This document shows positions 14,495 through 20,840 of a stretch of DNA of 64,000 bases, piece by piece. Made by a program: the position numbers and the translations under genes. Origin of the DNA: Gemmatimonas phototrophica (lineage in GTDB: Bacteria; Gemmatimonadota; Gemmatimonadetes; Gemmatimonadales; Gemmatimonadaceae). Numbering within the stretch: the first letter of the stretch is position 1; each line of letters opens with the position of its first letter. The stretch covers positions 2,542,001 through 2,606,000 of the forward strand of contig NZ_CP011454.1 of assembly GCF_000695095.2 (NCBI RefSeq), in the 5' to 3' direction. The notes under the pieces were generated by a model, which ran no database searches, was not told the origin of the DNA, and worked only from the letters and a program-made list of their open reading frames with translations.

Positions 14495-17400
14495 TCAGAA
14501 TCCGATGTTGATACGCGTGATGAAGTAGCTTGGCGGTCCAACAGTCTGGAACTCGCTTGGCGCGTCGGTACCATTGGTGGTGTTGAAGCCCGACTCCGGA
14601 TCAGTCCCGCGATAGTTGGTCCACAGCCTGAGGTTACGCGCCGTTACGACCAGCGACAGCGAGCGACCGCGCACGAGGCGCTTGGCGAGGCTGTTGGAGA
14701 GGGTCCACTGGGCCGACACTTCGCGCAGACGGACAAACGCTCCGCTCTGCAGGAAGCCGTCGAGCGTACGAGCCGGGTGTTCGTTGGCGGCAATGTTGGT
14801 GGCCTGATCGACGAATTCGGCGTTCAGGTTGTTGCGCCCCGAGCAGTTGGGTCGCGTGCAGCGAATCCGCTCGGTGTTGTTGTACCACAAACCACCACTG
14901 CGCCAATCCACCATGCCCTGCAAGCGCAGCTGCTTGTTGAACAGATCGAAGCCGTTCACCAGCGTGGTCATGTAGCGCGGCGTGGAGTAACCCCGGAAGA
15001 TGACCGAGTCGCCAACAAACACTTCGTTGCGGGCGGCATCGGCAAAGTACGTGAGCAGCCCGTCGCCGTTCTTGTCTTCCCAGCCGTTGATTGGCTGCGA
15101 CCAGTAGCCACCGATCGGATATCCGGCCACGGTACGGGTGGGCAAGCCAAGCTGCGCCGGCGTGTCACCCAGCGACACGACCTTGTTGTCGTTGGAGGAG
15201 AACGCAATGTTGGCGTCCCATCCGAACTTCTCACGCTGAATGAGCTGTGCGTTCAGTGCCACTTCAATCCCGGCATTCTTTACCGAACCGAGATTGCGCA
15301 ACTGTGACGCCACCGAGCCAAAGGAGGGCGGAAGCACGGCACTGATGAGCGCGTCTGTCGTGAGCTTGTTGTAGTACGTGAAGTCCAGGTTGATGCGCTG
15401 GCTGAACATCTGGGTTTCAAAACCCATTTCATGTTCGGCCGAGCGTTCCGGGCGCAGGTCCGCGTTTCCAAGCGCGCCCTGGGTTACCGTCGGCTGCTCT
15501 GCATTGGCGACGCTGGTGATACCGGCGTTGTAGAAGAACAGGGCGTCGTTGGGGCCAGGCTGCACGCCGGACTGGCCGTAGGCGTAGCGCAAGCGGAAGC
15601 TGTTCACGAACGCCGGTGCCTTCCACCAGTCTTCCTGGGAGATGAGGTACGACAGCGATGCCTTGGGATAGACGATGCTCTGGAAGTTGGTACCAAAGGC
15701 GGAGTTCTGGTCGCTCCGCACGGCGGCCGTGAGGAACAAGCGATCACGCCACGCCAGCGACTGCTCGATGAAAGAACCAAACGTCTTGGTTTCCGTGGTC
15801 CCTTCTCCAACACTGGGCTGCGTTCCGGAGCCTACGTTCTGCGAGCCGGGCGCCAATTGGTTGGAACCGGTCGATGCGGAAGAAAAACGGAAGCCGATAT
15901 ACTGCGCCCCCACCGTGGTCTTGTGCTGGAAGCCGAACTTTTCGTAGTTGGCCGTAGCACCCATGTCGACGGTGAAGTTGTTGATGTTCACACGGTTGAT
16001 GCCGCGCGAGCCCAAACGGGTGATCGCGGTGAGCGGCGGCCCTTCGCCGCGGAAGAGCAGGTTTTCGTCGTTGCGGCCAGTCCAGTCGTTACCGATAGCG
16101 GCCCGCGTGGACAGCCACGACGTGGGGCGGTAGTTCGCCTGACCGGACCAGATGAAGCGATTGACAGCCTGCTCGGTCTTTTCCGCCCACATGTAGCCAG
16201 GCGTCCAGGCGCGATAGCCGTTGAGCGGCGTGCCCAGCCCGGAAACGTTGCCGTTGTTGCGGGTGCCCGGGCCACCAAACAGGTGAGAGCCCAGACCGGC
16301 CGTGGCGTTTGATTCGAGCGAGTAGCGCTGCGCGATGTTGATGAAGTTGGTGGACATGCCCACGTCGAGCTTCGGATTGAGCTGGGCATTCACGTTGGAA
16401 CGCAGCGACCGACGCAGCATGGTGTTGGGACGCTCCGTCCACGGACGGATCGGGATTCCCGTGGAGTCCATACGCAGGCGCTCAAACTCCGGCAGTTCCA
16501 GGACGCCGATTTCGTTTTCGTCTTCGGCCGAGAGGAAGTACCGCACCGCTTCCGTGCCGCCGGACACCTGTGCACCCAACTGGCGCCGGTTGCCGGTGGA
16601 CACCGGTGTCAGATCTTTTTCGTCGAAAATATTCAGCGAACTCGTGGAGTCGGCGGCGCACAGCCCCTGTCCGACACGCTGCAGGTTACAGAAGGCACGT
16701 GACGACACCGTTTCGCCGGGACGCTTGCCCCAGAGAGAGTAGGCATCCGGATAGAAGTTGCGGTCGTAGACCGAACCGCCTTCGCCGTACACCGTCCACC
16801 GTGCCGCACCAGCGCGCCCCTTCTTGGTGGTCACGAGGATCACGCCGTTGGCGGCATCGGTACCGTACAGCGTGGCAGCCGACGGTCCCTTCACGATTTC
16901 GATATTCTCGATCTCTTCCGGGTTGAGGTCGCCCACGCGGCTTGGGGCGTTACCACCCGTACCACCACCACTACCGGTCGCGGTCGAGAAGCTGGCGTTG
17001 TTGCTCGTCATCCGGATGCCGTCGATGATCCAGATCGGCTCGTTGTTCAGGCTGACCGAGTTCATGCCACGGATACGGATACGCGCGCCCGTACCAGTTT
17101 GCGTGCCGCTGGTGACAGTCACACCGGGGGCGCGCGAATTGAGGAGGTCGTTCAAATTGCCCAGTGGCGCCGACTCCGTGAGCTTCGCGGCGTCAATATT
17201 GGCCGTGGCATTGCCGATTTCCACGCGGCGCTGCTCACCGGTCGCGGTGGTGACGACGGCGGCGAGGTTCACGGCCGCCGTAGCCAGCGCGATGTTCAGC
17301 GTGGCCGTCTGCCCGGCAGCGATCGTGATCGGCTTGGACTGCTCGGTGTAACCGACGCGCAAAATGCGCACCGTGTACTGCCCCGGGTTGATGGCGCGCA

Positions 17401-17599
17401 GCGTGAGGCGGCCTTCGGGGGTGGTTTGACCGGCGATTGTCGTACCCACCAGGAACACGCGAGCGGCTTCGACGGGGCGCTGATTGGCCGCATCGGTCAC
17501 GGTCACGGTCAGGGTACCGGGCTGCTGCGCACTAGCCGTTGGACCGGCGAGAGCGAGTAGCCCCGCCAGCGCCAGCAGGGGGCGCCACGAGTGGAGCAT
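14495..17599 (-). CDS. SusC/RagA-family TonB-linked outer-membrane transporter
   Basis: 1034 residues. Order of parts: signal peptide (residues 1-24, ending TASAQQ), a carboxypeptidase-regulatory-like beta domain (about 28-110), the SusC-type plug (about 115-240), including RIRIRGMNSVSLNNEPIWII and the end motif ATLYGTDAANGVILVTTKK, then a 22-strand barrel to the C-terminus, which ends in Phe (RINIGF). Transport is TonB-powered import of large ligands through the outer membrane with its SusD lid. A strong ribosome-binding site GAGGAGA lies seven bases before the ATG. The upstream region has repeated ACCGAT boxes that may be operators. Confidence 0.96.
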   Translation of the reverse strand: MLHSWRPLLALAGLLALAGPTASAQQPGTLTVTVTDAANQRPVEAARVFLVGTTIAGQTTPEGRLTLRAINPGQYTVRILRVGYTEQSKPITIAAGQTATLNIALATAAVNLAAVVTTATGEQRRVEIGNATANIDAAKLTESAPLGNLNDLLNSRAPGVTVTSGTQTGTGARIRIRGMNSVSLNNEPIWIIDGIRMTSNNASFSTATGSGGGTGGNAPSRVGDLNPEEIENIEIVKGPSAATLYGTDAANGVILVTTKKGRAGAARWTVYGEGGSVYDRNFYPDAYSLWGKRPGETVSSRAFCNLQRVGQGLCAADSTSSLNIFDEKDLTPVSTGNRRQLGAQVSGGTEAVRYFLSAEDENEIGVLELPEFERLRMDSTGIPIRPWTERPNTMLRRSLRSNVNAQLNPKLDVGMSTNFINIAQRYSLESNATAGLGSHLFGGPGTRNNGNVSGLGTPLNGYRAWTPGYMWAEKTEQAVNRFIWSGQANYRPTSWLSTRAAIGNDWTGRNDENLLFRGEGPPLTAITRLGSRGINRVNINNFTVDMGATANYEKFGFQHKTTVGAQYIGFRFSSASTGSNQLAPGSQNVGSGTQPSVGEGTTETKTFGSFIEQSLAWRDRLFLTAAVRSDQNSAFGTNFQSIVYPKASLSYLISQEDWWKAPAFVNSFRLRYAYGQSGVQPGPNDALFFYNAGITSVANAEQPTVTQGALGNADLRPERSAEHEMGFETQMFSQRINLDFTYYNKLTTDALISAVLPPSFGSVASQLRNLGSVKNAGIEVALNAQLIQREKFGWDANIAFSSNDNKVVSLGDTPAQLGLPTRTVAGYPIGGYWSQPINGWEDKNGDGLLTYFADAARNEVFVGDSVIFRGYSTPRYMTTLVNGFDLFNKQLRLQGMVDWRSGGLWYNNTERIRCTRPNCSGRNNLNAEFVDQATNIAANEHPARTLDGFLQSGAFVRLREVSAQWTLSNSLAKRLVRGRSLSLVVTARNLRLWTNYRGTDPESGFNTTNGTDAPSEFQTVGPPSYFITRINIGF

Positions 17600-17853: not shown

Positions 17854-18675
17854 GTGACAACCGCCAAGGCGCCCGCTCCGTCACTACCGAGTCCCCCCGC
17901 GCGGAATCCGGCTCTTCCCACCTCACTGGTGGCGATGGGGGCGGTGGCCGTGATGGCCGTCTATGCCACCGGATACGCCCGGACCAGCGACGCGGCGGCG
18001 CAACTCGCCACTCGCAGTAGCGCCCGACGGGTTCCATCGGCTGGCCAACCGGACGGAACACCAGTGCCCGCCATGCGAGCTCAACCATTAGTGGCAGCCT
18101 CGGCCGTAGACCAGGGAACCACCTTACCGAATCAAACGGGGAGCGCCGATGGAGTGCCCACCAGCGAGCTGAACGCCGAACGGCTCCAGGCTGCCAGTCC
18201 GGTACAACCGGTTCCCGTCGCGACGACCAATGCACCGGCCCTCAACACCGCCACCTCGGCACCAACACCCCCAGCCGCGGCATCCCCTCAAATTTCGGCG
18301 CCAGCCGCGCCGGCACCCGTCCCGACACCCACCCCCGCCCCATTGGTGGTATCGTCTCCCGTGCCGCCACCAGCGGTTACGCCGGACAGCGCCGACAGCA
18401 GCAAACGCGTCAAATGGCGGGATGGCACCTTTAGCGGCTGGGGGACCTCCCGACATGGCGACGTGGAGGTCACCGTCATCATTGAAGGGGGCAAGATTAC
18501 CGCTGCCGCCATCAGTCGCTGCCTTACCCGCTACTCCTGTTCGTGGATTGCGCACCTGCAACCGCAGGTAGTCGAACGGCAAAGCCCCGAAGTGGACAAC
18601 GTCTCCGGTGCCACCGAAAGCGCCAACGCCTTTTACTACGCCGTGCTCGAAGCCTTGAAGCACGCGGCGCCGTGA
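17854..18675 (+). CDS. Membrane-anchored FMN-binding domain protein (RnfG/NqrC-like)
   Basis: 273 residues from a GTG at 17854. A transmembrane helix (about 24-43, TSLVAMGAVAVMAVYATGYA) is followed by a long Pro/Ala/Thr-rich linker (about 60-185) and a C-terminal FMN_bind domain (about 188-273). The flavinylation motif is SGAT within DNVSGATESA; Thr254 should carry covalent FMN. In this family FMN is linked by a phosphoester bond made by ApbE, and the next gene is apbE, overlapping by four bases. The linker would let a periplasmic flavin domain reach a partner away from the membrane. The role is one-electron transfer from a membrane donor, here most likely the RnfD-like protein two genes on. 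Confidence 0.92.
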   Translation: MTTAKAPAPSLPSPPARNPALPTSLVAMGAVAVMAVYATGYARTSDAAAQLATRSSARRVPSAGQPDGTPVPAMRAQPLVAASAVDQGTTLPNQTGSADGVPTSELNAERLQAASPVQPVPVATTNAPALNTATSAPTPPAAASPQISAPAAPAPVPTPTPAPLVVSSPVPPPAVTPDSADSSKRVKWRDGTFSGWGTSRHGDVEVTVIIEGGKITAAAISRCLTRYSCSWIAHLQPQVVERQSPEVDNVSGATESANAFYYAVLEALKHAAP

Positions 18676-19604
18676 GCCAGTCGGTGTTGCCGACCTACGA
18701 GTTGGTCACCACGGCCATGAGCACGACGGTCTCCGTCCAGATCATCGGCGAACACCCCAAGGCGTCGGCGCTCGCAGCGGAGTCCCTCGGGTGGTTCGCG
18801 CTTGTGGAGCAGACATGTACGCGCTTCGACGCACACTCCGAGTTGATGCAGCTCTGTGCGGCGGAACCGGTCCCCACGGTTGTGTCGCCGCTTCTCTTTG
18901 AATTGCTGCGGCTCGCCCGCTCGGTGGCCGACGCTAGTCACGGCGCCTTTGACCCCACCGTGGGCGCCCGGGTGCACCAGTTGGGATTTGACCGGCCATG
19001 GCGTGGCGGCCCGGCCCTGCCGGCGCCAATCGCCGAGCACGACATTTCGTGGCGTGATGTAGAACTCGAGGAGAGTACGTCGAGCGTGCTCCTGCGACGT
19101 CCGCTGCTCCTGGATCTGGGAGCGATAGCAAAAGGCTTTGCGATTGATCTGGCAGCCCGCACGTTGGCGTCGGTGGCTCACGCCTGCATAAACGCGGGCG
19201 GAGATTTGTGGTGCCGCGGGCTGAATGCCAAGGGGGAGCCGTGGCGCACAGGCATCGTCCATCCGCGAGACGAAAAAAACCGCCTCGCGACCCTACAAGT
19301 ACGGGCCAACGAATTCGCCATCTGCACCAGTGGTGACTACGCACGGCGCACAGCCCGTGGCCACCATCTGGTTGACCCGCGGGCGCACGGCGGATCGGCC
19401 GCACTGTGCCAGAGCGTTACCGTGGTGGCCCCGCAGGCCGCCATTGCCGATGCGTTGGCTACGGCGGCGTTTGTGCTGGGCCCGCGCGAGGGTGCCAACT
19501 TGCTCACGTCGCAGGGAGTAGATGGCTGCCTGGTGGATGCCCATGGGGACGTCCACCTGGTTCACGGGTGGGGCATGTCGGAGTGGGACCTTGCCGCGCG
19601 CTGA
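18672..19604 (+). CDS. apbE: FAD:protein FMN transferase (ApbE)
   Basis: 310 residues; the GTG at 18672 overlaps the upstream TGA (GTGA). ApbE motifs are all visible: FDAHSELMQ, FDPTVGARVHQLGF, LDLGAIAKGFAID, CINAGGDLWCRG and IADALATAAFVLG. The enzyme splits FAD and attaches FMN to a Ser/Thr of FMN_bind proteins using Mg2+; the obvious target is Thr254 of the preceding gene product. Oddly, no signal peptide or lipobox is seen at the N-terminus (it starts VSQSVLPTYELVTTAM), whereas Gram-negative ApbE is normally periplasmic, as its target domain should be here. Start 18672 is therefore supported by overlap only. Confidence 0.95.
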   Translation: MSQSVLPTYELVTTAMSTTVSVQIIGEHPKASALAAESLGWFALVEQTCTRFDAHSELMQLCAAEPVPTVVSPLLFELLRLARSVADASHGAFDPTVGARVHQLGFDRPWRGGPALPAPIAEHDISWRDVELEESTSSVLLRRPLLLDLGAIAKGFAIDLAARTLASVAHACINAGGDLWCRGLNAKGEPWRTGIVHPRDEKNRLATLQVRANEFAICTSGDYARRTARGHHLVDPRAHGGSAALCQSVTVVAPQAAIADALATAAFVLGPREGANLLTSQGVDGCLVDAHGDVHLVHGWGMSEWDLAAR

Positions 19605-20487
19605 GTTCTCTGAGGAGTCGTCTCCGTCGCCGAGCCTGTGGCCACGGCACGCGCGGCGCTGGCTGCGGTCGCCCAAGGGGTTGTTCACGTTACTGCTCGG
19701 CGCCCTCACCGTTCCCGCCGCAACTCACACCGGATGGGCCCTCGTCATGCCGGGGCTGCTGGCGGCCATCGCCACGGCCATGCTCATGGATGCCCCGGTT
19801 ATCAGATGGCGAGATGGTACGTGGAGCATTCCCGACGGTGCCATGCTGACGGGCTGGCTGGTGGGAATCATTCTGAGTCCGCACGTGCCGTGGCTCGTGG
19901 CTGCGGGATCGGCGGCGCTGGCGATTGCGGCCAAGCACGTGCTGCGCGTTAAGCGCGCGAACGTTCTCAATCCGGCGGCCGCCGGGTTGGTCGCGAGCTA
20001 CTACCTCTTTGACAGCGGACAGAACTGGTGGGGAGCGCTCCCCGAGCTGTCGCTCCCCTGGGTGCTGCTCCTGTTGGGCACCGCCGGTTTCATGGCGTGG
20101 CGCCTCAACAAACTGGTGCTGGTGCTGTCGTTCCTCGGCGTCCACTTCGCGCTTGGCACGATCGCCGCCTATTGGGGGAACCCGGCATTGGTGGCGGAAC
20201 TGTTTCGCGCGCCCGATGTGCACATGGCGCTCTTCTTTGCCGGCTTCATGGCTACCGATCCACCCACCTCGCCGCCGCGCGCGGCTGATCAGCTGGTCTA
20301 TGGCATTGTCGCGGCCATCGCGAGCTTTACGCTCTTCATGGCCGTGGGCGCGGTGTATTTCCTGCTTGGCGGACTGTTGGTGGCAAACCTTTGGGAAGGA
20401 TGGCGCAAATGGAAACGCGTGAACGCTATGCGCACACGATTGCCCTCGACACGCGATGGATGGACAACGACGGCTATGGGCACCTGA
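19591..20487 (+). CDS. RnfD/NqrB-like multi-pass membrane protein
   Basis: About 298 residues from a TTG at 19591 that overlaps the apbE stop; the exact start is uncertain. There are about eight to ten transmembrane segments. Family markers of RnfD/NqrB are RANVLNPAAAGLVASYY and FFAGFMATDPPTSPP. I do not see the SGAT-type flavinylation motif that RnfD and NqrB carry. Rnf and Na+-NQR complexes normally need six subunits, including a NADH or ferredoxin dehydrogenase; here only the D/B-like core and an FMN_bind protein are present. The operon may pass quinol or cytoplasmic electrons across the membrane to periplasmic flavin. The downstream thioesterase gene overlaps its 3' end by 79 bases. Confidence 0.85.
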   Translation: MPRAEFSEESSPSPSLWPRHARRWLRSPKGLFTLLLGALTVPAATHTGWALVMPGLLAAIATAMLMDAPVIRWRDGTWSIPDGAMLTGWLVGIILSPHVPWLVAAGSAALAIAAKHVLRVKRANVLNPAAAGLVASYYLFDSGQNWWGALPELSLPWVLLLLGTAGFMAWRLNKLVLVLSFLGVHFALGTIAAYWGNPALVAELFRAPDVHMALFFAGFMATDPPTSPPRAADQLVYGIVAAIASFTLFMAVGAVYFLLGGLLVANLWEGWRKWKRVNAMRTRLPSTRDGWTTTAMGT

Positions 20488-20840
20488 ACAACGTCGTCTA
20501 TTACAGCCTGTTTGACACCGCGGTCAATCGCTGGCTGGTAGACCGACAGCTGCTCAACATCACCGAGAGTCCGGCAATCGGGCTCGTCGTGGAAACAGGG
20601 TGCCGCTACCTCGCCCCCTTGTCCTTTCCCGACCGCGTGACCGTCGGGTTGCGGGTGGCCCACCTTGGCACGTCGAGCGTGCGCTACGAGCTCGCCATCT
20701 TTCGCAACGATGAACGGACAGCCAGCGCTGTTGGGCACTTCGTGCATGTGTACGTTGATCGCAGGTCCCGTCGCCCCACCCCCATTCCCGGCGACATCCG
20801 CTCCGCGCTGAGCACTCTGCAACTCACCGCGGAGCATTGA
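20409..20840 (+). CDS. Hotdog-fold acyl-CoA thioesterase (4HBT/YbgC-like)
   Basis: 143 residues from the ATG at 20409, which has GGAAGG nine bases upstream; TTG 20391 and ATG 20400 are in frame too. The family pattern TRWMDNDGYGHLNNVVYYSLFDTAVN has the catalytic Asp and the helix-start His/Asn. The C-terminal half contains SVRYELAIFRN. These cytoplasmic enzymes hydrolyse acyl-CoA thioesters. The gene starts inside the RnfD-like coding region, so it is probably translated from the same message, but a functional link is not evident. Confidence 0.88.
   Translation: METRERYAHTIALDTRWMDNDGYGHLNNVVYYSLFDTAVNRWLVDRQLLNITESPAIGLVVETGCRYLAPLSFPDRVTVGLRVAHLGTSSVRYELAIFRNDERTASAVGHFVHVYVDRRSRRPTPIPGDIRSALSTLQLTAEH

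Follow-up and report, generated by a model that had tools for sequence, protein, structure and literature searches.

The 64,000-nucleotide stretch of the Gemmatimonas phototrophica genome analyzed here (NCBI RefSeq assembly GCF_000695095.2, contig NZ_CP011454.1, positions 2,542,001 to 2,606,000; hereafter the window) carries on its + strand an operon of three overlapping genes, encoding an FMN_bind flavoprotein, an ApbE enzyme, and an RnfD/NqrB-like membrane protein. Our data suggest, with a probability of roughly 0.6, that this operon specifies a minimal two-protein transmembrane flavin relay, a form of NQR/RNF-like system that operates without an NAD(P)H module. If this is correct, an RnfD/NqrB subunit can act as a transmembrane electron conduit with a single tethered flavin partner and no NADH/ferredoxin module. 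The operon would then rank with the smallest transmembrane flavin relays and offer a simple setting for tests of how the NqrB/RnfD flavin site works; in bacteria of soil and freshwater it would be a likely source of reducing power outside the cytosol that has gone unrecognized. The features on which this reading draws are as follows (positions are those of the window).

17854–18675, + strand: FMN_bind flavoprotein gene (PF04205, 26.6 bits, cut-off 22); 273 residues, with one N-terminal transmembrane segment, then a long linker, then a C-terminal FMN-binding domain
17983–18399, + strand: linker of 139 residues (44–182), rich in Pro/Ala/Thr/Ser/Val (72% by composition)
18400–18672, + strand: FMN-binding domain (AlphaFold pLDDT 94, from 72 sequences)
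18520–18540, + strand: C-x-T-x-Y-x-C pair, Cys223 and Cys229 (from conservation among relatives)
18604–18615, + strand: SGAT flavinylation motif, residues 251–254, with Thr254
18672–19604, + strand: ApbE gene (PF02424, 193.5 bits, above the curated cut-off)
19591–20487, + strand: RnfD/NqrB-like membrane protein gene (PF03116, 50.6 bits, cut-off 27.7); 298 residues, no NAD-binding domain
19849–20259, + strand: stretch with the residues assigned to riboflavin-ligand positions of NqrB (from RnfD alignments and spacing); codons of T87 at 19849, N124 at 19960, N127 at 19969, and D223 at 20257
20026–20040, + strand: WWGAL at the place of the RnfD/NqrB covalent-FMN threonine motif (63 sequences)

The three-gene unit and its genomic setting

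The coupling of the three genes by overlaps of 4 to 14 bases, proposed in a preliminary description made from the sequence alone, is borne out: the FMN_bind and ApbE genes share 4 bases (GTGA), the ApbE and RnfD-like genes share 14, and all three assignments have Pfam support. The RnfD-like gene opens with a TTG start at 19591, with GGAG 7 bases 5' of it. Beyond its profile score, the FMN_bind protein carries the [S/T]GA[S/T] motif that is the second criterion for its family, and ApbE likewise combines its profile score with the catalytic motifs (TSGDY, HHLVDP, and ADALATA), aligning with solved ApbE enzymes including 4xdt. The host genome is complete (4,716,552 bases), and its sole PF03116 protein, sole above-cut-off FMN_bind protein, and sole ApbE are all in the operon.

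The order FMN_bind–ApbE–RnfD was kept in all but one of 25 relatives, nearly all from the window's genus, and the exception is cut by a contig end. A search of a species-level genome collection with an RnfD-like profile gave 143 confirmed loci, 80 of which were kept; by title, most of these belong to Gemmatimonadetes, Acidobacteria, Opitutae, and Chloroflexi. Recurrence of the order in other genomes, put forward earlier as a check, was found across four phyla, in nearly all of the 80 loci not cut by a contig end. Several Chloroflexota members have no ApbE match adjacent, yet their FMN_bind and RnfD-like genes remain neighbors. The three genes are selected as one unit, with their order kept across loci. 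The unit is patchily spread: the high-scoring RnfD-like family (>270 bits) occurred in 30 of 298 Gemmatimonadota genomes sampled, nearly all of one taxonomic family, and in this sample a clear score gap separated it from other RnfD-like proteins (<65 bits). Those other subfamilies (~20–65 bits, mostly open frames of ~300–600 residues) are common in Gemmatimonadota, and five genomes (G020, G241, G313, G321, and G225) have two family-level RnfD-like copies.

No further conserved partner gene emerged from an all-against-all comparison of neighbors in the 80 loci, beyond small groups of relatives, and neither neighbor clustering nor Pfam scans revealed a reductase gene recurring beside the cassette or a dehydrogenase or donor protein associated with it. 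The neighbors that did recur were set aside as having unrelated functions by Pfam (TonB-type/outer-membrane barrels, sortilin-like BNR proteins, DUF5916, enolase-superfamily proteins, and short-chain dehydrogenases). In the window, a divergent TonB-dependent receptor gene (14495–17599) lies upstream of the operon, and a similar receptor adjoins the cassette in the close relatives L061, L062, and L064. The preliminary description extended the operon to 20840, a span that takes in a fourth gene:

20400 or 20409 (start) to 20840: 4HBT/YbgC-type thioesterase gene, overlapping the RnfD-like gene by ~80–90 bases

We rejected this gene as a member of the module because it adjoins the cassette in only 5 of the 25 relatives, thus in just a few relatives within Gemmatimonas; its match to MenI is far below cut-off.

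The genome appears to lack the remaining parts of the classical complexes. RnfA/E-type genes elsewhere in the genome, named at the outset as evidence that would count against a self-contained system, did not turn up: no PF02508 gene (RnfA/RnfE/NqrD/NqrE) was detected in the complete genome, and of the 20 further carrier genomes examined (many of them metagenome-assembled and possibly incomplete), 17 likewise showed none. Searches of the complete genome for PF00175 (NAD_binding_1) and PF00970 (FAD_binding_6) also gave no match, and control genomes gave matches in the searches with all three profiles. The searches thus gave no sign of an Rnf/Nqr complex or of an FNR-type NAD(P)H module. PF00175 was likewise not found in the RnfD-like protein itself or in ten divergent relatives scanned, including C-terminally extended ones. 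On this basis we dismissed the possibility that the long C-terminal extensions of two RnfD-like proteins from Chloroflexi (L136:5646-7091 and L139:1287-2585) conceal an NAD domain; these extensions, in which no Pfam domain was found, resemble an extra transmembrane segment followed by an extracytosolic tail.

The membrane protein and its tethered flavin domain

A model of the RnfD-like protein built from 63 sequences (mean pLDDT 91.2) confirmed the NqrB/RnfD fold at the level of predicted structure, removing the concern, raised with the first proposal, that the family fold might be missing. VIA-align gave Z scores of 24.4 to RnfD (8rbq_D) and 22.8 to NqrB (8a1x_B; 22–23 for NqrB overall), and Foldseek with VIA-align returned RnfD and NqrB alone as top matches (Z 21–24); the next folds, Amt/Rh and urea channels, scored only ~11–12. 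All NCBIfam RnfD/NqrB models scored far below their cut-offs on the protein, among them the RnfD subfamily model TIGR01946 (34.3 bits versus a cut-off of 207). The "two-component" label of the preliminary description is better taken to mean an RnfD/NqrB-like protein together with a domain that fills the part of RnfG/NqrC.

Residues T87, N124, N127, and D223 match, via RnfD alignments and similar spacing, Thr162, Asn200, Asn203, and Asp346 of NqrB, which are riboflavin ligands (PMC9325719). Across the 63 sequences N124, N127, and D223 are invariant, and position 87 is Thr in 61. Such conservation is consistent with a non-covalent flavin that would sit at an NqrB-type riboflavin site, within the half of the membrane nearer the cytosol. 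The glycine-rich loop that precedes N124 in RnfD is swapped for a basic loop with invariant K115 and R119; that this loop binds the flavin phosphate is only a guess. The covalent-FMN threonine of RnfD and NqrB (xxAT motif between the membrane halves) has no equivalent in any of the 63 sequences, the region being compressed to WWGAL. As the covalent FMN is gone from the RnfD-like protein, its place at the outer face may be taken by the FMN of the tethered domain.

The FMN-binding domain folds confidently alone, and its profile matches the FMN-domain structures 8p2b and 8p2a. Both the SGAT motif ending in Thr254 and the long Pro/Ala/Thr linker were recognized in the preliminary description and proved correct; from the motif and the enzyme family, ApbE probably attaches FMN to Thr254. 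The flanks of the transmembrane segment have mean net charges of +2.1 before and +0.5 after, and because of this difference the sequences favor an N-in/C-out orientation with a predicted extracytosolic FMN domain. The pattern is clearest in Chloroflexota, in which the N-terminal flank has 4–6 Lys/Arg and the C-terminal flank 0–1.

The Cys223/Cys229 pair is kept in 72 of 74 relatives and occupies the position of an ETPNLG-type loop in other FMN_bind domains. It was found neither in the FMN_bind proteins of the NAD-domain-fused systems examined nor in deep-branching Chloroflexota members of the window's clade (L148-L154). In the latter, loss of the pair goes together with His rather than Asn at residue 124 of the RnfD-like protein, a correlation that may reflect a single evolutionary event.

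Electron flow and alternative explanations

We infer flavin binding, the electron donor, the acceptor, and the direction of flow from these conserved features and from related systems, with outward flow as the favored direction. In the relay that we favor, the FMN domain would swing on its flexible linker to hand electrons to extracytosolic acceptors, by analogy with the model for NQR/RNF-like systems (Huang 2024). On the inner side, an FNR-type NAD(P)H module is an unlikely donor because none was found in the genome; the likeliest donors would be quinol at an NqrB-like rim site or some soluble carrier.

Several observations weigh against this relay. Its chief weakness is ApbE: no signal peptide or hydrophobic N-terminus was found in the window's enzyme or in ~75 relatives (the chain starts at the domain), which leaves the attachment of FMN to an extracytosolic domain unexplained and raises the question of how an ApbE without a signal peptide flavinylates a domain apparently outside the cytosol. 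A review describes most ApbEs as secreted and few as cytosolic (PMC12052999). In NqrB, the N-terminal region helps close the quinone site (PMC10643135); the corresponding region of the RnfD-like protein is shorter, so the case for quinol as the donor is weak. The mapping of the riboflavin ligands, moreover, is indirect, passing through RnfD alignments and spacing rather than a direct residue alignment.

The missing signal peptide would be accounted for if the FMN domain faced the cytosol, where ApbE would flavinylate it and the cytosolic FMN would feed the RnfD-like protein. Precedent exists in Klebsiella, whose cytosolic ApbE acts on a cytosolic substrate (PMC12052999), and the Gemmatimonas FMN_bind protein has several Arg in the C-terminal flank of its transmembrane segment. 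However, the mean charge difference favors the opposite orientation, strongly so in Chloroflexota, and the covalent FMN of NqrC sits at the outer face (PMC9325719); we judge this topology improbable. A reversed current, from an extracytosolic reductant through the FMN domain and the RnfD-like flavin into the quinone pool, is doubtful too, if a little less so. It would follow the order in Nqr, in which electrons pass from the FMN of NqrC through the FMN of NqrB and riboflavin to quinone (PMC9325719, PMC10643135), and it suits a cassette and genome in which no cytosolic donor module was found. Nevertheless, the proposal for the described NQR/RNF-like relatives is outward flow from NAD(P)H, and the cassette has no associated dehydrogenase or donor protein.

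NAD(P)H might also be the donor if a reductase from a different family, encoded apart from the cassette, docked on the RnfD-like protein; in favor is a related clade that shares the gene order and in which an NAD-binding domain is fused on (PMC8238504). Given that neither PF00175 nor PF00970 matched in the complete genome and that no reductase gene recurs beside the cassette, we hold out little expectation of such an arrangement. Least plausible is a role for the RnfD-like protein as a flavin carrier, bringing FAD/FMN to the site of flavinylation, instead of as a redox wire. ApbE does need FAD where it acts, and the fold has its weaker likeness to Amt/Rh and urea channels, but the flavin-site residues of the electron-transfer family are invariant, and a related solo RnfD-like protein adjoins a redoxin without FMN_bind or ApbE.

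A more speculative form of the two-protein wire, which we put forward very tentatively, would be self-sufficient and scattered over phyla, connecting the quinone pool or a different inner carrier with the tethered FMN domain outside the cytosol, where CxTxYxC would serve as a redox-active dithiol beside the flavin. If true, the wire would act as an extracytosolic flavin-to-thiol reductase, with a parallel in the Bacillus pair of a solo RnfD-like protein and a CxxC redoxin. On a plasmid of Metabacillus sp. B2-18 (L144:4309-5696), a solo RnfD-like gene overlaps by 4 bases the gene for an AhpC/TSA redoxin that is anchored in the membrane and has a CxxC motif. This pairing suggests that solo RnfD-like wires may be directed at thiol chemistry. 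We also considered whether the cassette stands in for thiol transport by DsbD/CcdA, but rejected this because a DsbD_TM match was present in each of the 24 genomes tested, leaving no gap to fill.

Comparison with known flavin-transfer systems

The cassette shares elements with both classical complexes. Like Rnf, it has an RnfD fold (Z 24) and an FMN_bind domain with SGAT, as in RnfG; it differs in having no RnfA/RnfE, no covalent-FMN threonine on the RnfD-like subunit, and a TIGR01946 score below cut-off. With Na+-NQR it shares the NqrB fold (Z 22–23) and the conserved riboflavin-ligand positions, but its genome is without NqrD/E and NqrF-type domains, and the RnfD-like protein has a shorter N-terminus and no covalent-FMN threonine.

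Solo RnfD-like proteins are a further point of reference. Those of the UnbU type and of Metabacillus are PF03116-type proteins of ~265–370 residues with no other Rnf subunits adjacent, but they belong to a different clade and neighbor a CRTAC1/VCBS-repeat protein or an AhpC/TSA redoxin rather than FMN_bind and ApbE. The "enediyne biosynthesis protein" and UnbU annotations at L165, L166, and plasmid matches H3-H41 correspond to solo RnfD/NqrB-like proteins, and in the two enediyne-type loci read, the solo genes adjoin CRTAC1/VCBS and DUF1702 genes. Given these enediyne and Metabacillus precedents, solo use of an RnfD-like protein is not unique to the operon.

The closest counterparts are the NQR/RNF-like systems, defined as flavinylation clusters in which the NqrB/RnfD-like protein carries PF00175 at its C-terminus (Meheust 2021 eLife, PMC8238504). 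Their RnfD-type protein is without a covalent-FMN site, the flavin of its partner may sample the flavin site of this protein (Huang 2024, PMC10979944), and the direction proposed for these systems is outward, with NAD(P)H as the source (PMC8238504, PMC10979944). The cassette has the same parts (FMN_bind, ApbE, and an NqrB/RnfD-like membrane protein), and several of the Chloroflexota clusters that we fetched have its gene order. In both, the covalent-FMN threonine is missing from the RnfD-like subunit and ApbE has no signal peptide, the latter among the NAD-domain-fused clusters examined. The fused RnfD proteins fetched from Chloroflexota are ~500 residues long, and their C-terminal part reads by eye as an FNR module, a domain that the cassette's protein does not have. 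In the fused proteins examined, H and E stand where the cassette's protein keeps N124 and D223 of the riboflavin site, and the CxTxYxC pair sets the cassette's FMN_bind apart from theirs. In the tree, the window's RnfD-like family forms one clade (support 100/99) and the NAD-domain-fused proteins another (100/100); the deeper branching order is uncertain because E. coli RsxD lies on a long branch. The clustering of FMN_bind, ApbE, and RnfD-like genes is itself already published; in the open literature that we searched, the form without the NAD domain was not described and Gemmatimonas was not mentioned in this connection. Because it is distinguished by the missing NAD-binding domain and the conserved CxTxYxC pair, we rate the cassette as an NAD-module-less variant of the NQR/RNF-like systems.

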